Assembly: GCA_002711845.1 (NCBI GenBank)
Contig: PASF01000001.1
Span: forward strand, 361,485-425,484
Source: Gammaproteobacteria bacterium
Lineage (GTDB): Bacteria; Pseudomonadota; Gammaproteobacteria; Pseudomonadales; Pseudohongiellaceae
Length of the DNA: 64,000 bases
Reading direction: 5' to 3'
This document shows positions 6,218 to 24,825 of the stretch, one piece after another. The translations under genes were made by a program, and so were the position numbers. Within the stretch, counting starts at the first letter, position 1. Each line of letters opens with the position of its first letter. Below the pieces are notes generated by a model. It ran no database searches. It saw only the letters and a list, made by a program, of their open reading frames with translations, and was not told the DNA's origin.

Positions 6218-7963
6218 ATGGACATTTTTTTCAAACTGGGCTGGTATTTCCGGGCACAATGGCGTCGTTACGCCGTCGCTGGCCTGTTGCTGGTGGTTGT
6301 TGATGTGCTGGAGCTGATGATTCCCTGGCTGGTCGGGCAGCTGATTGATGATGTGCTGGCTCAGCGGCTGACATCGGCCGACTTGTGGCGCTACGTGCTG
6401 ATCATCGCAGTGCTGGGCGTGGTCATCTATGTCATGCGCTTCCTGTGGCGCATGTATCTGTTCAGTGCCTCCTTTCAATTGGCGGAACTGCTGCGACAGC
6501 GGGTATTCAGGCAGCTTACCTCGATGGCCCCGGCGTTTTATCACCGGCACCGCACCGGTGACCTGATGGCGCGGGCCACCAATGACGTCACGGCGGTGGA
6601 GATGACCGCCGGTGAAGGCGTGTTGTCCGGGCTGGACGGCGTGGTGACCGGGGTGCTGGTGTTACTGGTGATGCTGGTGTTCATCAACTGGCAGCTGACG
6701 CTGGTGGCTTTGTTGCCGTTTCCGTTCATGGCCTGTTTTTTTTATATTCTGGGTACCCGCCTGCATGATGGCTTTCGTGATGCCCAGGAACGTTTCTCCG
6801 ATCTCAATGACCGGGTGCAGGAAAGTGTGTCCGGTATCCGCATGATCCGCGCCTTTGGCCGCGAAGCGCGGGAAGATCAGGTGTTCCTGTCGGTGGCTGA
6901 TCGCGCCTCCGAGGCCAATATGCGCGTGGCGGCAACGGACTCTTTGTATGACCCGGCCATTTTTCTCACGGTGGGGGCGTCGTTCATGCTGTCGATCGGC
7001 ATGGGCGCCTGGCTGGTGACACGCGGGGATATCACCCTGGGTGAACTGACCAGTTTCACCATGTACCTGGGTTTCCTGATCTGGCCGATGTTTGCCTATG
7101 GCTGGCTGCTGAACCTGGTGGAGCGGGGCAATGCTGCCTATACCCGGATCAGTGCGCTGCTGGATGCCCGTTCACCGGTGATCGATGATGGCCGCGAGCA
7201 GCAGGCGCCGTCGTTCGATATTCATTGGCGCGTTGACCGGTTCTGCTATCCCGGCAGTGACCAGCCGGCGCTGGCGAATATTGATCTGATCGCGCGCCAG
7301 GGGCAGATGCTGGGTATTGTTGGCGCCACCGGCGCGGGCAAAACCTCGCTGATCAACCTGTTGCTGCGCTATTACGATGACCCCGCCTGTGAGGTCAGTG
7401 TGGGTGGTATACCGGTGGCGGCGTATCAGCTGCATGCGCTGCGCGGCATGGTGGCCGTGGTGCCGCAGGATGCCTTTCTGTTCACTGCCACCATTGCCGA
7501 AAATATCGCGCTGGGCAAACCTGATGCCACGCTTGATGAGATCCGTGCCGTGGCCCGCCTGGCGGCGGTTGAGCAGGATATTCTGCGCTTTCCGGCAGCC
7601 TACGAGACCTTGGTCGGCGAGCGCGGCGTCACGCTGTCCGGGGGGCAGAAGCAGCGTATTGCCATTGCCCGCGCGCTGCTGCTGGATGCGCCGATTCTGA
7701 TTCTGGACGATGCCCTGTCGGCCGTCGATGTCGGCACCGAGCGCAGCATTCTGGCGCACCTGCGCGCGGCCCGGCAGGGCCGCACCACCCTGGTTCTGTG
7801 TCACCGTCTGTCTGCCGTCGAAGAGGCCGAACAGATTGCCGTGCTCAGTCATGGCGAGCTCGCCGAGTTGGGCACCCATCAGGCATTGTTGGCCCGCAAG
7901 GGCTGGTACGCGCGCATGTTCGATTATCAGCAACTGGAGCAGGCCGTTGTATCAGGACGATGA
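6218..7963 (+). CDS. mdlA: MdlA-like ABC exporter half (permease-ATPase)
   Basis: A 581-residue half-transporter with a six-helix exporter domain (about 1-320) fused to an ATPase domain. The ATPase shows Walker A GATGAGKTS, a Q-loop in VPQDAFLF, an intact LSGGQ signature, and Walker B LILDDALSAVD, where the usual catalytic Glu is Asp. That LDD form is typical of the MdlA/SmdA partner of heterodimeric exporters. An upstream frame reaches 6125, but the ATG at 6218 (MDIFFKLGWYF) gives the family's usual length; its ribosome site is poor. The 3' end overlaps the start of the mdlB-like gene, as expected for coupled subunits. The substrate is unknown: multidrug efflux by family analogy, with peptide export possible from context. 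Confidence 0.9.
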   Translation: MDIFFKLGWYFRAQWRRYAVAGLLLVVVDVLELMIPWLVGQLIDDVLAQRLTSADLWRYVLIIAVLGVVIYVMRFLWRMYLFSASFQLAELLRQRVFRQLTSMAPAFYHRHRTGDLMARATNDVTAVEMTAGEGVLSGLDGVVTGVLVLLVMLVFINWQLTLVALLPFPFMACFFYILGTRLHDGFRDAQERFSDLNDRVQESVSGIRMIRAFGREAREDQVFLSVADRASEANMRVAATDSLYDPAIFLTVGASFMLSIGMGAWLVTRGDITLGELTSFTMYLGFLIWPMFAYGWLLNLVERGNAAYTRISALLDARSPVIDDGREQQAPSFDIHWRVDRFCYPGSDQPALANIDLIARQGQMLGIVGATGAGKTSLINLLLRYYDDPACEVSVGGIPVAAYQLHALRGMVAVVPQDAFLFTATIAENIALGKPDATLDEIRAVARLAAVEQDILRFPAAYETLVGERGVTLSGGQKQRIAIARALLLDAPILILDDALSAVDVGTERSILAHLRAARQGRTTLVLCHRLSAVEEAEQIAVLSHGELAELGTHQALLARKGWYARMFDYQQLEQAVVSGR

Positions 7964-9716
7964 CTTACCCCGACACGTGAACCGCGGTTCACTGAAGCGC
8001 CTGCTGCGCTATGCGCTGGCATACCCGCAGCTGCTCAAGCAGGCGGCGGTGTTTCTGCTGCTGGCGACGCTGGGGCAGGTGCTGGGGCCGGTGCTGATCA
8101 AGGTGTTTCTGGATGATTACGTGACCCAGGGTGTGTATCCGGTGCGGGACATCACGCTGCTGGCGCTGGCCTATGCGGCCATGTACGGGGTCTCCGCCTG
8201 GGCCGGGTACCTGCAGGCCATGCGGCTCAATGAAGTGGCGTTTTCGGTGGTGCGCAGCATCCGCTCACAGGTGTTTGCGACGGTGATGCGCAAGCCCATG
8301 AGTTTCTTTGACCATGAACCGACCGGCAAGCTGGTGTCGCGGATTACCAATGACACCGAGGCCATCAAGGATCTGTTTCTGCATGTGATGGCAACCTTTG
8401 TGCAGAGCCTGGTGTTGATTGTGGCGGTGTTCATTGCCATGGCCTTTCTGGACTGGCGCCTGATGCTGGTGTGCCTGGTGATGATGCCGCTGATGGTGTT
8501 TGTCATGTTCACCTACCAGCGCCTGAGCTCGCCGCGTTATCACCGGGCACGCAGTATCCTCAGTCAGATCAATGGTTCGCTGAGCGAGTCGATTCAGGGC
8601 ATGAAAGTGATTCAGCTGATGAACCAGCAGCGGCGCTTTGATCAGCGTTTCACCGACACCAGCCAGAGCCACTTCAAGGCGCGAATGCGCAACCTCAAGC
8701 TGGACGCCCTGCTGTTGCGGCCGATGCCGGATCTGCTGCGCACATTGACCCTGGCCTGTCTGTTGTTCTTCTTCGGCTGGCAGTCGATGCAGACCGCGAT
8801 CGAGGTCGGTGTGATTTATGCGTTTATCAACTACCTGTCGCGCATCACCGAACCGGTGCTGCAGATGACTCAGCGGCTGAGCATGCTGCAGCAGGCGGTG
8901 GTCGCGGGTGAGCGGGTATTCACTATTCTGGATGATGGCGCTGAGGAACACGCCGCTGCACATCAGCTGATCGAGAGCGGGGAGGTGACCTTTCAGGAGG
9001 TTGCGTTCAGCTATGACGGCGAGCATCCAGTGCTGCGCGACATCAACTTTACCGTCAGGCCCGGCGAGTTTTACGCCATTGTTGGCCATACCGGCAGCGG
9101 GAAAAGCACGCTGATGAGCCTGCTGATGCGGTTCTACGCACCGCAGTCCGGCGACATTCTGCTCGACGGCAAGCACATCAATGAAATTGACCAGAACAGT
9201 CTGCGCGAATCGGTCGGTGTAGTCATGCAGGATCCGTTTATCACCACCGGCACGGTGCGGGAAAATATCACCCTGGGCCAGGACATGCCTGATGATGTGG
9301 TGCTGGCCGCTGCGGAACAGGCGCAGATCCATGACTTCATCATGACCCTGCCGCAAGCGTACAACACGCTGATGGACGAACGCGGCAGCAACTTCTCCAC
9401 CGGCCAGCGTCAGCTGCTGTCCCTGGCACGCACGCTGGCGCACAAGCCGCGCATCCTGATCCTGGACGAAGCCACGGCCAATATCGACAGCCACACCGAG
9501 GCGGTTATCCAGCGCGCGCTGCTGCTGCTGCGGGGGCACACCAGCATCATCGCCATCGCCCATCGGCTGAGCACCATCACCGCGGCAGATCAGATTCTGG
9601 TCTTGCATCAGGGCGAGATTACTCAGCGGGGCACGCACCAGGCACTGCTGGCTGAGGACGGCCTGTATCGCAACATGTATCTGTTGCAGCAGTCACGGGT
9701 GGTTGTCGCCGATTAA
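7947..9716 (+). CDS. mdlB: MdlB-like ABC exporter half (permease-ATPase), probable TTG start
   Basis: A 589-residue partner of the preceding half-transporter. An exporter membrane domain (about 30-330) is followed by an ATPase domain with Walker A GHTGSGKST, Walker B LILDEATANID with the catalytic Glu, and a degenerate signature FSTGQ instead of LSGGQ. Together with the Asp in the partner this gives the asymmetric pair of ATP sites known for heterodimeric exporters. No ATG is available near the expected N-terminus. TTG at 7947 sits 7 bases after a GGAG and gives a 17-base overlap with mdlA; GTG at 7977 is the alternative but has no ribosome site. The frame is open far upstream, but that part merely overlaps the mdlA ATPase. 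Confidence 0.9.
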   Translation: MYQDDDLPRHVNRGSLKRLLRYALAYPQLLKQAAVFLLLATLGQVLGPVLIKVFLDDYVTQGVYPVRDITLLALAYAAMYGVSAWAGYLQAMRLNEVAFSVVRSIRSQVFATVMRKPMSFFDHEPTGKLVSRITNDTEAIKDLFLHVMATFVQSLVLIVAVFIAMAFLDWRLMLVCLVMMPLMVFVMFTYQRLSSPRYHRARSILSQINGSLSESIQGMKVIQLMNQQRRFDQRFTDTSQSHFKARMRNLKLDALLLRPMPDLLRTLTLACLLFFFGWQSMQTAIEVGVIYAFINYLSRITEPVLQMTQRLSMLQQAVVAGERVFTILDDGAEEHAAAHQLIESGEVTFQEVAFSYDGEHPVLRDINFTVRPGEFYAIVGHTGSGKSTLMSLLMRFYAPQSGDILLDGKHINEIDQNSLRESVGVVMQDPFITTGTVRENITLGQDMPDDVVLAAAEQAQIHDFIMTLPQAYNTLMDERGSNFSTGQRQLLSLARTLAHKPRILILDEATANIDSHTEAVIQRALLLLRGHTSIIAIAHRLSTITAADQILVLHQGEITQRGTHQALLAEDGLYRNMYLLQQSRVVVAD

Positions 9717-17399: not shown

Positions 17400-18359
17400 A
17401 TGAAAAAATCCAGTATAGCTATGCTCGCTATGGCAGCTGCAGTCAGCTTTCAGGCTAATGCGGCGACCGGCGTTGACCCACTGACGCAAGTACAGCCAGT
17501 GGACGCTGAGTGGTTCTACAACGGCACTGAGCCTGATCATATCGTTGAAGTGCCAAGCTTCAACGTACCTGCGACCGGTGTTATCGACTACATCGACTCC
17601 GTGATTCCGTTGGAATTCGGCGAAGAGAAGTGGGTAAAAGCGGTTCAGTTCATTCCGGGTGACAAGCGCGTGCTTCACCACCTGCTGAGCTACGTTGTTG
17701 CCGACACGCCTGACGCAGGCGAAGGCATGCTCGACGAAACGGTTAACGATCCGCGTCGTGAATTCCTGGAAGGCTATGCGCCTGGCAAGGAATACGCCAC
17801 TGAGTTCCCCGAAAACACCGGCATCCGCGTTCCGGATGGTTCGGCTCTGCGCATGAGCATTCACTACACGTCGTTCGGTCAGGAAACAACTGACAGCACC
17901 CGTGTGGGTCTGTGGTTCGCTGATGAAAACAATGAGCCTGAGTACGAGTACCACACTTACTCGGTCGCCACGCCCATGAATCAGATCCAGATTCCTGCTG
18001 GCGCCATGAACCACGAAGCCTCATCTTCGCACGTGTTCGAAGATGACATCCTGCTGTACGGCTTCCGTGCTCACATGCACTACCGTGGCAAAGCGATGAG
18101 TGCGCGCGTTGTGTACCCGGACAATACGTCTGAGGACATCATCAACGTAGCAGACTACAACTTCGCATGGCAGCCGACTTACCGCCTGGACGAGCCGATG
18201 GTTCTGCCTGCCGGTTCACGCGTTGTCGTAGAAGGTCTGTTTGACAACTCTCAGTACAACCTGGGCGTGCCTGATCCAACCGTAGACGCCATGGGCGGCC
18301 TGCAGAGCTGGGAAGAAATGTTCATTGGTTACTTCTCTTACACAGATCTGCCGGAGTAA
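17400..18359 (+). CDS. PHM-like type II copper monooxygenase-like exported protein, paralog A
   Basis: A 319-residue protein with a Sec signal (KKSSIAMLAMAAAVSFQANA). The ATG at 17400 is chosen over the longer frame because GGGAGG lies just upstream. The mature part matches the copper-binding C-terminal module of bacterial redoxin-cytochrome-monooxygenase fusions: PATGVIDY, then WVKAVQFIPG, VLHHLL (an HH pair, as at CuH of peptidylglycine monooxygenase), IHYTSFG (a third His), AHMHYRGKAM (HxH, as at CuM), EGLFDNS and a late WEEMFIGYF whose Met matches the CuM methionine. All six expected copper ligands are therefore present. The substrate is unknown. A terminator follows, so it is probably transcribed alone. 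Confidence 0.85.
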   Translation: MKKSSIAMLAMAAAVSFQANAATGVDPLTQVQPVDAEWFYNGTEPDHIVEVPSFNVPATGVIDYIDSVIPLEFGEEKWVKAVQFIPGDKRVLHHLLSYVVADTPDAGEGMLDETVNDPRREFLEGYAPGKEYATEFPENTGIRVPDGSALRMSIHYTSFGQETTDSTRVGLWFADENNEPEYEYHTYSVATPMNQIQIPAGAMNHEASSSHVFEDDILLYGFRAHMHYRGKAMSARVVYPDNTSEDIINVADYNFAWQPTYRLDEPMVLPAGSRVVVEGLFDNSQYNLGVPDPTVDAMGGLQSWEEMFIGYFSYTDLPE

Positions 18360-18406
18360 GGCATAGCTGTTTGGTAAGTAAGTAATTGATTGAGCAGCAC
18401 AACATC

Positions 18407-18441
18407 AAAAGGGGCTGCTTCCCTGAGAAGCAGCCCCTTTT
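18407..18441 (+). terminator. Rho-independent terminator after PHM-like gene A
   Basis: A perfect 14-base stem (AAAAGGGGCTGCTT with its complement) closes a 7-base loop and ends in TTTTGTTT on the plus strand. The A-run before it makes it potentially bidirectional. Confidence 0.93.
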
Positions 18442-18478
18442 GTTTGCGCGCAAGAAGTGATTTAAACGGTCATAAGTT

Positions 18479-18518
18479 TGCGTCAGATTAAGAAATAGTG
18501 ACGCAGATAACGTATACT
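18479..18518 (+). promoter_or_regulatory. Operator-like inverted repeat with adjacent -10 element
   Basis: TGCGTCA (18479-18485) and TGACGCA (18499-18505) form a perfect 7-base inverted repeat with 20 bases between half-site starts, about two helical turns. TATACT (18513-18518) fits a -10 box for the redoxin-cytochrome gene. No good -35 exists and the repeat occupies that position, which would suit an activator- or repressor-controlled promoter. Confidence 0.4.
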
Positions 18519-18670
18519 TGGTGGCCTGAACGATTGTTGTTATTCAGGTTGCATTAATCGAGTCGCTGTAATCTACAAGTCAGAACAAAAATATAACGCC
18601 ATGCGTCACGACCCATAGAACGGTGACGTTCGGCAGAATTATCCAGAGAGAGTATGAGGGTTTGTTCATC

Positions 18671-19534
18671 ATGAAGAAAATTAGCTGGTTGGCGCTGTTC
18701 ACAGCTGCCGCATTCAGTATTAACGCACATGCTGCGCCGGAGCGCGTAGGCGACTTCACCCTGATCGACGATGCAGGCAAGGCACATCAGTTGAGCAAAT
18801 ATGCGTTCAACAAAGCCGTGGTTATCGTTTCGCAGGCGTCCGGTTGCACCATGAACCAGGAAAACATTGCCCGTTACAAGCAACTGCGTACTAACTGGGA
18901 TCACCGCGGCGTCAGCTTCCTGATGCTGAACTCGTCAGTTGATGACGACCGTGCCGCCATTCGTGCGGAAGAAGCTGTCTGGAACTATGACTTCCCGATC
19001 ATGGACGACGATGCACAGCTGGTTGCCAATGCACTGGGTGTGACTCAGGCTGGCCAGGTGGTGGTTGTGGATCCGGTGCGCATGAATGTACTGTACCGTG
19101 GCCCAATGCCGGCACAGTGGGCGCGTGCGCCGCTGGGTCAGGTCCTGGAAGCCATTGTGGCCGACGGTGCGGACTCGCGCCAGATGGACACCGTGACAGT
19201 GGACATGACAGAGGCCGATGGTTGCGCCCTGGAGTTCCCGGTTGCCGAGCAGTACATGGCTGAGGCGCCCGACTATGAGACAGAAATTGCGCCGATCCTG
19301 ATCGAGCGTTGTGTTGGCTGTCACGTTGAAGGTGGTATCGGGCCGTTTGCCATGAACAGCCACATGATGATTCAGGGCTGGAGCCCGATGATTCGTGAGG
19401 TGATCATGACCAACCGCATGCCGCCGATGCAGGTTGACCCTGCCGTGAAAAGCTTCTCCAACTCGGGCAACATTCCGACGGAAGAGCGTCAGAAGCTGAT
19501 TCACTGGATCAATGCCGGTTCGCCACGCGATTGA
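18671..19534 (+). CDS. Exported redoxin-cytochrome c protein
   Basis: A 287-residue protein from the ATG at 18671 (GAGGG ten bases upstream) with a Sec signal ending in AHA. Residues about 22-165 form a thioredoxin-like redoxin (AhpC/TSA-type) domain: GDFTLID, VIVSQASGCTMNQ with a single Cys at the usual position, GVSFLMLNSS and VVVVDP. Residues about 205-285 form a small cytochrome c-like domain with a covalent heme site CVGCH and a Met-containing RMPPMQVDP, ending in IHWINAG. In many planctomycetes and marine bacteria the same two domains are fused to a PHM-like copper module; here the copper modules are separate neighbouring genes. Likely role: electron delivery or redox partner to them in the periplasm. 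Confidence 0.87.
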   Translation: MKKISWLALFTAAAFSINAHAAPERVGDFTLIDDAGKAHQLSKYAFNKAVVIVSQASGCTMNQENIARYKQLRTNWDHRGVSFLMLNSSVDDDRAAIRAEEAVWNYDFPIMDDDAQLVANALGVTQAGQVVVVDPVRMNVLYRGPMPAQWARAPLGQVLEAIVADGADSRQMDTVTVDMTEADGCALEFPVAEQYMAEAPDYETEIAPILIERCVGCHVEGGIGPFAMNSHMMIQGWSPMIREVIMTNRMPPMQVDPAVKSFSNSGNIPTEERQKLIHWINAGSPRD

Positions 19535-19555
19535 TCATAACTAAGTGATTGATTT

Positions 19556-19590
19556 AAAAGGCCGTCCTGCGAAAGCAGGGCGGCCTTTTT
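19556..19590 (+). terminator. Rho-independent terminator after the redoxin-cytochrome gene
   Basis: AAAAGGCCGTCCTGC pairs with GCAGGGCGGCCTTTTT around a GAAA loop. A stable stem with a single internal G-T pair, ending in five T residues. Confidence 0.93.
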
Positions 19591-19704
19591 GCGTTGTGCG
19601 CCCCTTGTATCCTGTGTTCAAAAGGTTTAGCATCAATAGACAACACTAAAAAGGCTGCAGGAAAAGCAGTATGCAAGCCCCCATAACAACAGGACTGTAG
19701 AAGG

Positions 19705-19748
19705 TTCATATAGAGTCCATATAGAGCCCATATACAGTCCATATAGAG
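19705..19748 (+). repeat. Four 11-bp direct repeats upstream of PHM-like gene B
   Basis: Units TTCATATAGAG, TCCATATAGAG, CCCATATACAG and TCCATATAGAG lie head to tail with no gap, ending 51 bases before the ATG at 19800. The 11-base period is about one helical turn, so bound proteins would stack on one face of the DNA. No similar array is seen before genes A or C. Confidence 0.9.
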
Positions 19749-19799
19749 AGTTCACACAAGCCGTCATGTCGACTGGCTTCGAACCGGTGAGAGGTGCTT

Positions 19800-20759
19800 A
19801 TGAAGATCAAAATGATCAAAACGACATTAACGGCCGCTGTGGCCCTTGCCGCAGGCAGTCTGGCCCACGCGGGTGTTGATCCGCTGACACAGATCCAGCC
19901 GCCACAGAGCGAGTGGTCCTACGACGGCACCGCGCCTGACCATATCGTTGATGTCCCGCCCTTTCAGGTGCCCGCCACGGGTGTGATCGACTATATCAAC
20001 TCGGTGATCCCGCTCGAGTTTGAAGATGAGCGCTGGGTCAAGGCCGTCCAGTTCATCCCGGGTGACAAGCGCGTACTGCACCACCTGCTGTCCTACGTGG
20101 TGGCAGACAATCAGGACAACGAAGGCATGATTGACGAGGCCGTCAATGACCCGCGCCGTGAGTTCCTGGAAGGTTATGCGCCTGGCAAGGAATATGCCAC
20201 CGAGTTCCCTGAAAACACCGGGATCAAGGTGCCTACGGGCTCTGCCATACGCATGAGCATTCACTACACCTCCTTTGGTCAGGAAACCATGGACAGCACC
20301 CGTGTTGGCCTGTGGTTTGCCGATGAGGAAAATGAACCAGAGCTGGAATATCACACCCACTCGGTGTCTCCGGGTAACCGGACCGAGAATATTGTCATTC
20401 CGCCGGGTGCGATGAACCATGAAATGGCCGCAACACACGTGTTCGAAAAGGACATTCTGCTGCGTGGTTTCCGTGCTCACATGCATTACCGTGGCAAGGC
20501 CATGGCGGCGCGCGTGATTTACCCGGACAATACCTCGGAAGAGATCATCAATGTGCCGGACTACAACTTCGCCTGGCAGCCCACCTACCAGATGGAAGAG
20601 CCGATGGTGATTCCGGCCGGTTCACGGGTCGTCGTGGAGGGTCTGTTCGACAACTCCGAGTACAACCCGGGTAACCCGGATCCGACCGTGCCTGCCATGG
20701 GCGGTCTGCAGAGCTGGGAAGAGATGTTTATCGGTTATTTTTCATACACCGATCTGTAA
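19800..20759 (+). CDS. PHM-like type II copper monooxygenase-like exported protein, paralog B
   Basis: A 319-residue paralog of gene A with a Sec signal (about 1-25, ending in AHA). The ATG at 19800 follows GAGAGG; a GTG two codons earlier is possible. The ligand motifs are conserved: VLHHLL, IHYTSFG, AHMHYRGKAM and WEEMFIGYF. The opening GVDPLTQIQPP after the signal is shared with gene C and differs slightly from A (TQVQPV), so B and C look like the more recent duplicates. It lacks any redoxin or heme domain. A tandem repeat array and a long leader precede it and its own terminator follows, so it may be controlled separately from its neighbours. Confidence 0.85.
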   Translation: MKIKMIKTTLTAAVALAAGSLAHAGVDPLTQIQPPQSEWSYDGTAPDHIVDVPPFQVPATGVIDYINSVIPLEFEDERWVKAVQFIPGDKRVLHHLLSYVVADNQDNEGMIDEAVNDPRREFLEGYAPGKEYATEFPENTGIKVPTGSAIRMSIHYTSFGQETMDSTRVGLWFADEENEPELEYHTHSVSPGNRTENIVIPPGAMNHEMAATHVFEKDILLRGFRAHMHYRGKAMAARVIYPDNTSEEIINVPDYNFAWQPTYQMEEPMVIPAGSRVVVEGLFDNSEYNPGNPDPTVPAMGGLQSWEEMFIGYFSYTDL

Positions 20760-20793
20760 AAACAGCTTTTAATCAGTAGTTTAAGAGAAAAAT

Positions 20794-20827
20794 AAAAAAG
20801 GCGGTCCAGTGATGGGCCGCCTTTTTT
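20794..20827 (+). terminator. Rho-independent terminator after PHM-like gene B
   Basis: AAAAAAGGCGGTCC pairs with GGGCCGCCTTTTTT around a short loop, with six T residues at the end. Confidence 0.92.
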
Positions 20828-20887
20828 CGTCAAATCTCCTGCCACACTATATTGCAAATAGCCCCGAGCCCATATTGTTTTGCACGG

Positions 20888-20915
20888 TTGACTGGTTTAG
20901 GATCAGACGTAATGC
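20888..20915 (+). promoter_or_regulatory. Possible sigma70 promoter of PHM-like gene C
   Basis: TTGACT (20888-20893) and TAATGC (20910-20915) with a 16-base spacer, about 100 bases before the ATG at 21013. The -35 match is good and the -10 only moderate. Confidence 0.4.
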
Positions 20916-21012
20916 AAGGCGGTTTGTATGCAGATCATAATAAAAATGACAAACAGCATCGCGGCCTTGATGCGGCCGCGCACCCTCACAGGTTGTGACA
21001 GGAGCCGTTATA

Positions 21013-21969
21013 ATGAAAAAAACCACGTTGTCCGCAGCACTTGTGTTGACGGCCGTCTGGGGCATTCAGGCCCAGGCTGGCGTTGACCCCCTGACCCAGA
21101 TCCAGCCCCCTGCCAGTGAATGGACCCACGACGGTTCAGCGCCCGATCACATTGTTGACGTGCCTCCGTTTGCGGTACCTGCTACCGGCGTTATCGACTA
21201 CATCAATTCCGTCATTCCCCTGGAATTTGGCGAAGAAAAGTGGGTGAAGGCGGTTCAGTTCATTCCGGGTGACAAGCGTGTTCTTCATCATCTGTTGTCC
21301 TACGTGGTCGCCGATGATCAGAACAACGATGGCACCATTGACGAAGCCGACAACGATCCCCGTCGCGAATTCCTCGAAGGGTACGCACCGGGCAAGGAAT
21401 ATGCGACCCAGTTTCCCACCAATACCGGCATCAAGGTGCCCGTTGGCTCGGCGCTGCGCATGAGTATCCACTACACCTCGTTTGGCCAGGAAACCGTCGA
21501 TAACACCCAGGTCGGCCTGTGGTTCTACGACGAGGACGAAGCGCCTGAGCTGGAGTTTCATACCTACTCGGTATCGGCCAATGGCGCAGACCGGCTGGTG
21601 ATTCCGCCAGGTGCCATGAATCACGAAATGGCTGCCAGTCACGTGTTCGAGGACAACATTGTGCTGCATGGCTTTCGTGCACACATGCACTACCGCGGCA
21701 AAGCCATGTCAGCCCGGGTGATCTATCCGGACAACACCGTGGAAGACATCATCAATGTGGCAGACTACAACTTTGCCTGGCAGCCAACCTACCGTATGGA
21801 TGAGCCCATGGTATTGCCGGCCGGTTCACGGGTCGTGGTGGAAGGGCTGTTCGACAACTCTGAGTATAATCCGGGTAACCCGGATCCAACGGTGCCTGCT
21901 GTCGGCGGACCACAGAGTTGGGAAGAGATGTTTATCGGCTATTTTTCTTACACAGACCTGCCTGAATAA
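21013..21969 (+). CDS. PHM-like type II copper monooxygenase-like exported protein, paralog C
   Basis: A 318-residue paralog of genes A and B. The ATG at 21013 has an AGGAG nine bases upstream and starts a Sec signal (KKTTLSAALVLTAVWGIQAQA). The copper-ligand motifs VLHHLL, IHYTSFG, AHMHYRGKAM and WEEMFIGYF are all kept. Differences from B lie mainly in the acidic loop after VVAD and in the region before the HxH motif. This fits three isoenzymes with the same chemistry and different substrate pockets or expression, which is inference. An imperfect terminator follows, then an Old Yellow Enzyme gene on the same strand. Confidence 0.85.
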   Translation: MKKTTLSAALVLTAVWGIQAQAGVDPLTQIQPPASEWTHDGSAPDHIVDVPPFAVPATGVIDYINSVIPLEFGEEKWVKAVQFIPGDKRVLHHLLSYVVADDQNNDGTIDEADNDPRREFLEGYAPGKEYATQFPTNTGIKVPVGSALRMSIHYTSFGQETVDNTQVGLWFYDEDEAPELEFHTYSVSANGADRLVIPPGAMNHEMAASHVFEDNIVLHGFRAHMHYRGKAMSARVIYPDNTVEDIINVADYNFAWQPTYRMDEPMVLPAGSRVVVEGLFDNSEYNPGNPDPTVPAVGGPQSWEEMFIGYFSYTDLPE

Positions 21970-22007
21970 GGTAAGTTAGTAAGCTGATTCGATAAGCAGA
22001 CCGTATG

Positions 22008-22042
22008 AAAAGGCTGCTTCCTGACCGGAGCGGCCTTTTTTT
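22008..22042 (+). terminator. Probable rho-independent terminator after PHM-like gene C
   Basis: AAAAGGCTGCTTCC pairs imperfectly with GGAGCGGCC and is followed by seven T residues. Confidence 0.8.
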
Positions 22043-22087: not shown

Positions 22088-23185
22088 ATGTCGATAGATG
22101 CTTTATTGCGACCTTTTTCCACTCCAAAGCTGACCCTGAAGAATCGCCTGGTCATGGCGCCGATGACGCGGCAATTCTCGCCGAATGGCGTGCCCGGTGC
22201 CAACGTGGCTGAATACTATCGTCGGCGGGCAGAGGGTGATGTCGGCCTGATCATCACCGAAGGCACAACGGTGGGACACAAAGCCGCTTCCTTCGATGCC
22301 GCCATACCCAATTTTTACACCGATGAAGCGCTGGCCGGCTGGGCCGAAGTTGTCAAGGCTGTGCATGCACAGGGTGGCAAGATAGCGCCGCAGCTGTGGC
22401 ATGTGGGCTGTGCCCGCAAACCCGGCTCCGGTCCGTTCCCGGATTACCCCAGCGCCACGCCGTCAGGGTATGCATTGCCCGGCAAGAAGGTGGGTGAGCC
22501 ACTGACAACGGCGGAAATCGACGAGATCGTGAAAGCCTTTGGTGAGGCCGGTCGCAACGCCAAAACACTGGGCTTTGATGCGCTGGAGATTCATGGCGCA
22601 CACGGCTACATGATTGATGACTTCCTGTGGGAAGGCCTGAATACGCGTGATGACAAGTACGGCGGATCGCGTAGCAAACGCAGCCAGTTTGCTGTGGAAA
22701 TCGTGCAGGCAATCCGCTCGGAAGTGGGCGAGGATTTCCCGATCATCTTCCGTTTTTCGCAGTGGAAACAGCAGAACTATGACGCTCGCCTGGCCACCAC
22801 ACCGGACGAACTGATGGAAGTGCTGGCACCGATTTCTGATGCCGGTGTCGATATTTTTCATTGCAGCCAGCGACGTTTCTGGGAACCGGAGTTCGAGGGT
22901 TCAGACCTGAACCTGGCGGGTTGGACCCGCAAGCTGCTCGACAAACCGACCATCACGGTGGGCAGTGTGAGCTTGAATGAAGAGTTTATTACCACCTTCA
23001 TGGGTGGCGAAGCGGGCAGCGCCGATATCGGTGAGTTGCTGCAGCGGATGGAGGCAGACGAGTTCGATCTGGTGGCCGTCGGGCGCGCGCTGATTGCCAA
23101 CCCTGACTGGCTCAAGCAGGTGCAGCAGGGCGATGTGTCGTCCCTGAAAACCTACGATAAATCCTTGTTGGCTGCGCTCGCATAA
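22088..23185 (+). CDS. Old Yellow Enzyme family NADH:flavin oxidoreductase
   Basis: A 365-residue FMN-dependent TIM-barrel oxidoreductase. Visible family marks are LKNRLVMAPMTR near the N-terminus, GLIITEGT, the LWHVG strand, the HGAHGYMIDDFLWEGLNTRDDKYGGS substrate/FMN loop with its paired histidines, and the late VAVGRALIANPDW phosphate-binding region. Such enzymes reduce activated C=C bonds or nitro groups, or open the route to N-demethylation; the substrate cannot be told here. The ribosome site at the ATG is poor. The BCCT transporter gene starts 38 bases downstream on the same strand, which may mean joint transport and catabolism of a quaternary-amine-type compound, but this is only a contextual guess. 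Confidence 0.9.
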   Translation: MSIDALLRPFSTPKLTLKNRLVMAPMTRQFSPNGVPGANVAEYYRRRAEGDVGLIITEGTTVGHKAASFDAAIPNFYTDEALAGWAEVVKAVHAQGGKIAPQLWHVGCARKPGSGPFPDYPSATPSGYALPGKKVGEPLTTAEIDEIVKAFGEAGRNAKTLGFDALEIHGAHGYMIDDFLWEGLNTRDDKYGGSRSKRSQFAVEIVQAIRSEVGEDFPIIFRFSQWKQQNYDARLATTPDELMEVLAPISDAGVDIFHCSQRRFWEPEFEGSDLNLAGWTRKLLDKPTITVGSVSLNEEFITTFMGGEAGSADIGELLQRMEADEFDLVAVGRALIANPDWLKQVQQGDVSSLKTYDKSLLAALA

Positions 23186-23223
23186 GAGCGCATCTGGCAC
23201 CAGAAAAACAAAAACGGAGAACG

Positions 23224-24825
23224 ATGATGTTTGATCGATTAGCCGGGTTTTTGGGTCTGAATGCCATACCCCAGATCTTCTTCAGTGCAGCGGGCATCGC
23301 AATACTGTTTGTCTGCCTTGCCATTCCTTTCAACAGTCAGTTCGCGGCGTTCTTTGGCGCCGTGGGCACGTTTACCTTTCAGTATTTTGGCTGGTTTTAT
23401 GTGCTCAGTGTCAGCGGCCTGCTGATCTTTCTGATCTGGCTGGCACTGAGTCGCTACGGTCATGTGCGCCTGGGCCCTGATGATGAAGGGCCTGAATACC
23501 CGACCGTGACCTGGTTCGCCATGTTGTTCGCGGCCGGTATCGGCACCATCCTGATGTTCTGGGGGGTGGCCGAGCCCCTGTCGCATTTTGCCAATCCGCC
23601 CATCGAAGGCGTCGAAGCCGGTACCGTGGATGCGGCCAAAAACGCCATGAACATCGCGCTGTACCATTTCGGTTTGCATACCTGGACCATCTTCACCATG
23701 CCGGCGCTGGCGATTGCCTACTTTACCTATCGCCAGGGTTTGCCGATGCGCATCAGCAGCATTTTCTACCCGGTGATGGGTGATCGGATTTACGGTCCGC
23801 TGGGGTGGACGATCGACATCATCGCCTTGCTCGGCACGCTGTTTGGGGTGGCGGTCTCGGTGGGTCTGGGTACGCTGCAGCTGAACAGCGGCCTGAACGC
23901 CGTGCTGGGGCTGCCCATCAGCCAGTTGTCGCAGTTGTTGATTGTGGTGGTGATTACCGCTGTGGCCACCATCTCGGTCGCGCTGGGGCTGGATCGTGGC
24001 ATCAAGCGGCTGTCGGAGTTCAACATCGTGCTGGCGCTGATTGTCATGCTGTTTGTCTGGCTGGCCGGGCCGACGCTGTTCATTACCTCGGGCATCGTGC
24101 AGAACTTCGGCAACTACCTGCAGAATCTGCCCTGGATGTCGTTCTGGACCGAAGCGTACCAGGGCACTAGCTGGCAGCAGAGCTGGACCGTGTTCTACTG
24201 GGCGTGGACGATTTCCTGGGCACCTTATGTGGGCATCTTTATCGCGCGCATCTCCAAGGGCCGCACCATTCGCCAGTTTGTCGGTGGTGCGCTGGGGGCG
24301 CCCTTATTGTTTACCGCGGTGTGGTTTTCGGTGTTCGGGCTGGCGGCCATGGACCTGGAGCTGAACCAGGGTGTAGACCTCACCACACAGGTGCAGGCGG
24401 ACGTGTCGGTGGCGCTGTTTGATTTCCTCAGTTACTTCCCGGCGGCGACACTGATATCGGTGCTGAGCCTGGTGGTGATCGTGGTGTTCCTGACCACCTC
24501 GGCGGATTCGGCGGCGCTGGTGGTGGATGTTCTGTCACGCCATGATACGCAGCCCAGCCTGACCTGGCAGCGCATCTTCTGGACGGTGTTGCTGGGCCTG
24601 ATCGCCGCCACCCTGTTGCTGGGCGGTGGCTTGCCGGCGCTGCAGAACGTGATCACCACGCTCGGTTTCCCGTTCTGTGTGTTGCTGGTGTTCATGGCCT
24701 ATTCGCTGCTGCGCTCGCTGCACGCCGATTACCTGGGTTACAGCCTGGAGGAGTCGGCGGCCGGCAAAGTGCCACATATGGACCCGATGGGCTCGAAACC
24801 GTCAGACAGCAAGGGCGCGCAGTAA
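23224..24825 (+). CDS. BCCT family betaine/carnitine/choline transporter
   Basis: A 533-residue membrane carrier with about 12 helices. The BCCT signature region is present: SWQQSWTVFYWAWTISWAPY, followed by VGIFIARISKGRTIRQF, and the MFWGVAEPLSHF motif in the first half. These proteins import quaternary ammonium or sulfonium osmolytes with Na+ or H+. CGGAGA lies five bases before paired ATG codons at 23224/23227. There is no long C-terminal osmosensing tail like that of BetP. The last 24 bases overlap the convergent rlmKL gene. Confidence 0.94.
   Translation: MMFDRLAGFLGLNAIPQIFFSAAGIAILFVCLAIPFNSQFAAFFGAVGTFTFQYFGWFYVLSVSGLLIFLIWLALSRYGHVRLGPDDEGPEYPTVTWFAMLFAAGIGTILMFWGVAEPLSHFANPPIEGVEAGTVDAAKNAMNIALYHFGLHTWTIFTMPALAIAYFTYRQGLPMRISSIFYPVMGDRIYGPLGWTIDIIALLGTLFGVAVSVGLGTLQLNSGLNAVLGLPISQLSQLLIVVVITAVATISVALGLDRGIKRLSEFNIVLALIVMLFVWLAGPTLFITSGIVQNFGNYLQNLPWMSFWTEAYQGTSWQQSWTVFYWAWTISWAPYVGIFIARISKGRTIRQFVGGALGAPLLFTAVWFSVFGLAAMDLELNQGVDLTTQVQADVSVALFDFLSYFPAATLISVLSLVVIVVFLTTSADSAALVVDVLSRHDTQPSLTWQRIFWTVLLGLIAATLLLGGGLPALQNVITTLGFPFCVLLVFMAYSLLRSLHADYLGYSLEESAAGKVPHMDPMGSKPSDSKGAQ

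Follow-up and report, generated by a model that had tools for sequence, protein, structure and literature searches.

A split variant of the bacterial redoxin-cytochrome c-PHM architecture in Pseudohongiella and related bacteria

The peptidylglycine monooxygenase PHM and dopamine beta-hydroxylase (DBH) are textbook animal copper enzymes, with ascorbate as the reductant. A 2020 metalloproteome review (PMC7435645) places both under eukaryotes only, and no characterised bacterial PHM was evident in titles and abstract openings of the open-licence literature, including those on the genus Pseudohongiella and on PAL-type lyases. Here we analyze a stretch of 64,000 nucleotides from a Pseudohongiellaceae genome (contig PASF01000001.1, positions 361,485 to 425,484; "the window"). 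An original prediction, made from the letters of this stretch, had described a PHM-like copper module that is separated from its redoxin-cytochrome partner and present in three tandem paralogs. The cluster is real and conserved, and the original prediction was right in outline; its interpretation is partly supported. It represents a new, split version of a bacterial protein architecture whose biochemistry did not turn up in the open-licence literature searched. With moderate confidence, we read it as a split form of redoxin-cytochrome c-PHM in which one periplasmic cytochrome would feed several two-copper monooxygenase copies.

The genes occupy positions 17400-21969 of the + strand in the order PHM copy 1, redoxin-cytochrome c, PHM copy 2, PHM copy 3. 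The PHM and redoxin-cytochrome modules are separate frames, with stop codons and terminator-like hairpins between them:

17400..18359, + strand: PHM-like copper monooxygenase, copy 1, 319 aa (PF03712, E 9.5e-7; AlphaFold2 fold, Foldseek, copper ligands)
18406..18442, + strand: terminator-like hairpin 3' of copy 1 (16-pair stem; z -5.33, 56-base stretch)
18671..19534, + strand: redoxin-cytochrome c, 287 aa, likely shared electron donor (AhpC-TSA, E 7.8e-8; AlphaFold2, redoxin/ResA-like by Foldseek, conserved residues)
19556..19589, + strand: terminator-like hairpin 3' of the redoxin-cytochrome gene (15-pair stem; z -6.10, 56-base stretch)
19800..20759, + strand: PHM-like copper monooxygenase, copy 2, 319 aa (PF03712, E 1e-6; 80% identity to copy 1)
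20794..20827, + strand: terminator-like hairpin 3' of copy 2 (15-pair stem; z -6.30, 56-base stretch)
21013..21969, + strand: PHM-like copper monooxygenase, copy 3, 318 aa (PF03712, E 1.8e-6; 78% identity to copy 1)
22007..22040, + strand: terminator-like hairpin 3' of copy 3 (14-pair stem; z -5.41, 54-base stretch)

PHM-like copies and their redoxin-cytochrome c neighbour

The frames of 319, 319 and 318 aa agree with the three exported paralogs of about 319 aa that had been claimed. By reading of the sequence, all three start with a signal-peptide-like N-terminus and are apparently exported. Each was matched by Cu2_monoox_C (PF03712) above the curated cut-off (E 9.5e-7 to 1.8e-6). The N-terminal family PF01082 gave no Pfam match in the copies; the predicted fold of copy 1 covers nearly the whole PHM core, and the ligands of the N-terminal domain align. 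No NCBIfam model matched at E 0.1, and a PDB sequence search with copy 1 or a 26-row profile as query returned nothing up to E 10. The link to the PHM family therefore rests on the fold, PF03712 and a pairwise profile alignment.

The structure of copy 1 was predicted with a mean pLDDT (predicted local distance difference test score) of 88.5 (AlphaFold2, 26 rows). In a Foldseek search of the PDB, the best 31 matches were all PHM or DBH, mostly one rat enzyme, with E-values from 1.3e-13 to 2.6e-9, TM (template modelling) scores up to 0.66 and 283-316 alignment columns. The match after these drops to E 3.4e-5 and TM 0.2. The predicted fold of copy 1 is thus that of PHM and DBH.

Profile alignment to rat PHM was colinear (pair E 8e-5, hhalign probability 61). 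It pairs H93, H94 and H155 (copy 1 numbering) with the CuH ligands H107, H108 and H172 of the rat enzyme, and H225, H227 and M307 with the CuM ligands H242, H244 and M314. By alignment, all six are present in all three copies, as had been predicted. The structure check that came with the prediction was thus borne out for the fold of copy 1 and for ligand order, both in agreement with PHM; the geometry of the sites stays a prediction. In the same alignment R223 pairs with PHM Arg240 and Y311 with Tyr318, while the Asn316 position is Ile. In PHM, the carboxylate of the peptidyl-glycine substrate is bound by Arg240, Asn316 and Tyr318.

In an alignment of 26 rows, the combination of R223 and Y311 is found in 19/19 rows of the split type, of two fused types of relatives (A and B) and of the loci L090/L091, and in none of the seven other, fused proteins of the window's genome, one of which has the Tyr alone; these are counts of related rows and not of independent events. 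The ligands and the Arg223/Tyr311 pair are identical across the three copies, and none of the copies contains a cysteine. The copies are very probably two-copper enzymes of the PHM type. One fused relative in the same genome (L026:2465-4246) has H94 replaced by S and H155 by R with CuM kept, possibly a one-copper or non-enzymatic form.

The protein encoded between the first and second copies had been described as carrying redoxin and CVGCH cytochrome domains, and both are there. Its Pfam match to AhpC-TSA (E 7.8e-8) lies above the cut-off; a c-type cytochrome family was matched weakly (Cytochrome_CBB3, E 0.044, below cut-off), and a PDB sequence search with the protein gave weak matches only. 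The AlphaFold2 model (pLDDT 82.1) has its best Foldseek matches among redoxin and thioredoxin-like structures such as SMc02350 and ResA, with CcmG lower down. The putative heme site is the CxxCH motif CVGCH at 214-218, whose C, C and H are kept in 25/25 rows; M240 and M250 are both invariant, and either is a candidate axial (sixth) heme ligand. The redoxin cysteine pair C59/C185 is present in 18/18 rows of the same clade. It is complete in none of the seven other fused proteins of the genome, one of which has C59 alone. Since the PHM copies lack cysteine, the thiols of the redoxin-cytochrome serve no PHM disulfide. Two loci, L028:2153-4588 and L024:1922-2776, hold redoxins of this type that stand alone and have a Cys close to the C-terminus (GCLVGFFLS); that of L028 adjoins a two-CxxCH protein that reads like a di-heme peroxidase.

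Each of the four genes was said to have its own ribosome site and terminator. Hairpins of 14-16 pairs with a U-rich 3' arm follow all four (z -5.3 to -6.3), and 0/200 shuffles were as stable; two control intergenic stretches gave z -0.45 and z -2.72. A pattern-based terminator scan picked up none of these hairpins, because it needs Ts after the stem and here the Ts sit in the 3' arm. Purine-rich ribosome sites were read before PHM copies 1, 2 and 3; the site of the redoxin-cytochrome gene looks weaker. At 12 other Pseudohongiella-type loci, the best 60-base fold within 110 bases downstream had -18.9 to -45.6 kcal/mol (energies without a shuffle control), with runs of 4-9 Ts after these genes. 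Separate termination suggests that the four genes may be regulated separately.

The ratio of nonsynonymous to synonymous substitution (dN/dS) between the window and relatives was 0.02-0.12 for all four genes where dS was unsaturated. Eight relatives were used each for copy 1 and the redoxin-cytochrome; 7/8 comparisons were usable for copy 2 and 5/7 for copy 3, the rest being saturated, and PHM copies were paired by position. Computation thus shows purifying selection on all four genes, and the cluster is not a product of chance. A codon-usage index was tried as a proxy for expression and was uninformative, as its ribosomal-protein reference (23 frames) had a mean of 0.72, below the window median of 0.74. 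The redoxin-cytochrome gene scored 0.83, the highest of the window frames, and the PHM copies 0.77, 0.80 and 0.74.

Distribution and origin of the split

The nearest named records to copy 1 are from Pseudohongiella, with 95% identity in an unclassified species and 80% in P. nitratireducens. Split PHM genes were found in 15/15 genomes of the genus. Three copies are present in twelve of them, with the third cut by the end of the contig in two cases. Another genome carries four, and in the remaining two the first two copies are intact and the third is broken by in-frame stops (G012:C21:24943-25635 and G013:C54:2378-3312). At least seven further genomes of the family carry the split PHM among the matches listed (one of genus g5 and six of g6; 137 genomes searched), in searches that kept the best rows only and may hide weak split forms. 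A standalone redoxin-cytochrome is present in all 15 genus genomes and in 6/6 g6 genomes, and a single one (E 1e-75 or better) adjoins a PHM gene in 21 of the 22 split genomes listed. One contig titled Rhodoferax sp. OV413 (a metagenome-assembled genome; L134) carries a Pseudohongiella-type split cluster with 81% identity, and its bin name is probably wrong.

The fused form had been called the usual state, and the data agree. The window's genome itself encodes seven fused redoxin-cytochrome-PHM proteins. In a class sample of 369 genomes including its own, 4 others matched at E 1e-20 or better, with frames of 627-725 aa; by frame length only, these appear to be fused. PF03712 as a phylum probe hit 2/398 genomes (the window's own and one other). 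At E 1e-5 it recovered 4/10 known PHM-like frames of the window's genome, which means that most bacterial forms are missed by it. No match was found in a plasmid collection at E 1e-5. The same genome also holds a distant 510-aa cytochrome-PHM-like protein without redoxin and without a PF03712 match (L027:2423-3955), followed directly by a 316-aa protein with no Pfam or NCBIfam match (L027:1473-2423).

Trees were built for the two halves separately. The PHM tree took in 73/83 rows; to limit its size or keep it clean, L027 (distant), L069 (truncated at the N-terminus) and eight rows from L043 and L050-L053 were set aside, these eight including additional copies of G014 and G010. For the redoxin half, 53/55 rows were used, without a lone redoxin and a truncated row, and 4/6 of the g6 split redoxin-cytochromes were among them. 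Neither included rows from loci L001-L020 or from L092 onward. The split redoxin-cytochromes formed one group (support 98/95), as did the split PHMs (100/97). Both groups were placed with fused type A (plus L090/L091) and not with type B, the tandem neighbour of A, with support of 99/94 in the redoxin half and 92/97 in the PHM half. A topology uniting the split PHMs with type B was rejected (P value of the approximately unbiased test, p-AU, 0.029). Derivation of the redoxin half from the neighbouring type B was disfavoured. The trees fit a single origin of the split, with type A of the OM182-like relatives as the nearest fused form.

All six g6 genomes show the reverse of the domain order of the fused proteins: the PHM gene comes first and the redoxin-cytochrome gene follows, with match ends some 85-110 bases apart. 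A stop codon in a fused gene alone cannot explain such a split, and simple fission is ruled out as the whole story. The split would probably be a single event in an ancestor that Pseudohongiella shares with two sister genera: a fused gene was duplicated and the two copies later lost opposite halves, a route that can yield the g6 order. The oxygenase would then have been copied in Pseudohongiella, while the donor stayed single; the PHM tree places the origin of copies 2 and 3, or their homogenisation, within the Pseudohongiella lineage.

Probable electron donor, copy number and linked genes

Because of the fused architecture and the single-copy co-occurrence, the redoxin-cytochrome is, by analogy, a probable shared donor of the PHM copies. 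Cytochromes serve other periplasmic enzymes, and a shared soluble partner would be the simplest reading of the split. The cytochrome c domain would take electrons from the respiratory chain in the periplasm and pass them to CuH (H93, H94, H155) of whichever PHM copy docks, replacing the ascorbate of the animal enzymes. At CuM (H225, H227, M307), O2 would then be bound and a C-H bond in a small substrate hydroxylated. Possible tasks of the redoxin domain and its Cys59/Cys185 pair are a thiol relay or the removal of peroxide. Since Arg223 and Tyr311 match Arg240 and Tyr318 of PHM, the substrate probably carries a carboxylate and may be N-acylglycine-like or peptidyl-glycine-like. Of the separate redox partner that had been claimed, the separate protein is observed, and that it reduces the PHM copies is what we infer.

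Several observations weigh against this proposal and against the origin given above. The alignment to PHM is modest (hhalign probability 61) and, when made without realignment, stopped after the HxH pair and before the Met ligand. Enzyme activity, metal, heme and the interaction of donor and PHM are predictions from sequence. The four genes look separately terminated, so that co-expression is not required. The seven fused relatives of the genome and its other cytochromes could act as donors. The g5 genome G033 has a split PHM and no standalone redoxin-cytochrome at E 1e-75, on a contig that is short (5.6 kb). As to origin, type B is not firmly rejected as the source of the redoxin half (p-AU 0.079), and a grouping of the split forms with type A alone lacks clade support, reaching 85/59 in the redoxin tree and being absent from the best PHM tree (p-AU 0.374, not rejected).

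The same separate termination, together with the PHM-bearing G033 in which the redoxin-cytochrome was not detected, would suit an arrangement in which the redoxin-cytochrome serves some other protein, and the PHM copies get their electrons from a small reductant or from a periplasmic cytochrome of general use. A redoxin fold that is nearest to thiol-disulfide and thioredoxin-like proteins points the same way. We regard this as unlikely, as both modules in one chain are the common state in this genome and family, and the single redoxin-cytochrome adjoins a PHM gene in 21/22 split genomes. Less probable still is that the PHM-fold proteins are copper carriers or peroxide handlers that have retained copper sites, and not monooxygenases. 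The family does tolerate non-standard sites, given that L026 has lost two CuH ligands; against this, all six ligands and the equivalents of Arg240 and Tyr318 are found in 19/19 aligned rows of the clade.

The three PHM copies had been called isoenzymes, a claim that finds no support over gene dosage, in which all three do the same job and were multiplied for the amount of enzyme and not for different substrates. We judge dosage to be evenly balanced between true and false. Ligands and the Arg223/Tyr311 pair are identical at 78-80% identity, copy number varies (a third copy with stops in 2/15 genus genomes, four copies in one), and each copy has its own terminator-like hairpin. On the other hand, the copy 1 rows from across the genus, 13 in all, group in a clade of their own (100/100), and in the window and the three relatives nearest to it copies 2 and 3 also stay separate (100/98 and 100/99), which means that the copies have been kept apart for some time. 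All copies also have dN/dS under 0.12 where measurable.

Downstream of the cluster, the window holds an Old Yellow Enzyme-type gene and a BCCT transporter region (22088-24825). The former is tied to the system by linkage only:

22088..23185, + strand: Old Yellow Enzyme-type flavoprotein (PF00724, E 2.3e-62)

Where a Pseudohongiella-type locus has a downstream flank longer than 1 kb, this gene is there (11/11, counting the window's own); two more loci, with flanks shorter than 0.9 kb, did not show it. Its closest solved structures were ene-reductases of several kinds, none of them telling. A BCCT transporter lies near the split cluster in 8/11 loci; of the three without one, two have a flank that stops short of 3 kb. 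At four g6-type loci (L141-L144), the split pair is preceded by a 214-aa gene that presumably, from its motif, encodes an iron superoxide dismutase.

The surroundings of the fused relatives are different in content. We used 57 fused loci of OM182-type relatives (L145-L201), which were taken from the best matches to the split PHM and so are closely related, and counted presence anywhere in the locus. Among those with more than 4 kb before the fused gene, a PAL-like NHL propeller occurs together with a HupE/UreJ-type gene in 42/45; a CstA-type carrier is found in 45/52 of those whose sequence continues for over 2.2 kb past the fused gene. With the fused PHM, these genes make up a conserved cluster in the OM182-type relatives. 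The same set surrounds one fused gene of the window's own genome (L202:2359-8881, C12; PAL-like protein at 7688-8881), in a different arrangement. The propeller residues that align with the active-site Arg, the first zinc His and the Tyr of PAL are invariant in 10/10 rows. The Arg240/Tyr318 equivalents kept in this clade, and the place of fused relatives beside PAL-like propellers, hint at a PHM/PAL-type N-dealkylation.

Two observations speak against this lead: no propeller was found beside the split cluster (a PAL-like match is absent from the split loci L126-L144 and L207, as far as the flanks reach), and L025, the fused protein of this cluster in the window's genome, is without the Arg/Tyr pair. 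The lyase of PMC12508155 is reported there to have no homology to PAL and is not used as support. A wider scenario is speculative and distinctly improbable: the family would run a periplasmic counterpart of animal peptide amidation, with a cytochrome-fed PHM acting on an N-acylglycine-like or peptidyl-glycine-like compound, a PAL-like propeller yielding amide and glyoxylate, and CstA-type uptake of the 2-oxoacid, and Pseudohongiella would have removed the oxygenase from this clustered, fused context, separated it from its electron donor and multiplied it.

Comparison with known systems

The locus belongs to a bacterial clade with the complete PHM copper set and two PHM substrate-binding residues. 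A cytochrome is the apparent donor in place of ascorbate, and donor and oxygenase are naturally apart. Since both are separate and soluble-looking, heme-to-copper transfer, which is hidden in the fused proteins, might be directly measurable. The linkage of fused relatives to PAL-like propellers adds a concrete guess at the substrate.

With animal PHM (PDB 1opm, 1phm), the copies share the predicted two-domain beta fold (best Foldseek entry E 1.3e-13, TM 0.62), all six copper ligands and the equivalents of Arg240 and Tyr318. They differ in being bacterial, in showing 16-20% identity in structural alignments, in having Ile for Asn316 and in the lack of any lyase domain or gene seen at the locus. 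Animal PHM has several disulfides, whereas the window copies are free of Cys. DBH (PDB 4zel) likewise shares the fold (Foldseek E 2.1e-13 and 2.4e-13). A DOMON domain is part of DBH, whereas Pfam finds none in the window copies, which have 319 aa as compared with 544-550 modelled residues. The propellers of the fused relatives match rat PAL (PDB 3fvz) by profile over most of the propeller with E 3.5e-10, and match other NHL propellers (Thin, TRIM71) better than PAL.

The closest likeness is to the fused redoxin-cytochrome c-PHM proteins, seven of them in the same genome and many in OM182-type relatives. The modules are the same, and over the PHM module identity to copy 1 goes up to 63% among the best fused rows. 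In contrast to the fused proteins, the window has two separate proteins, a PHM gene upstream of that for the likely donor, and the oxygenase in triplicate.

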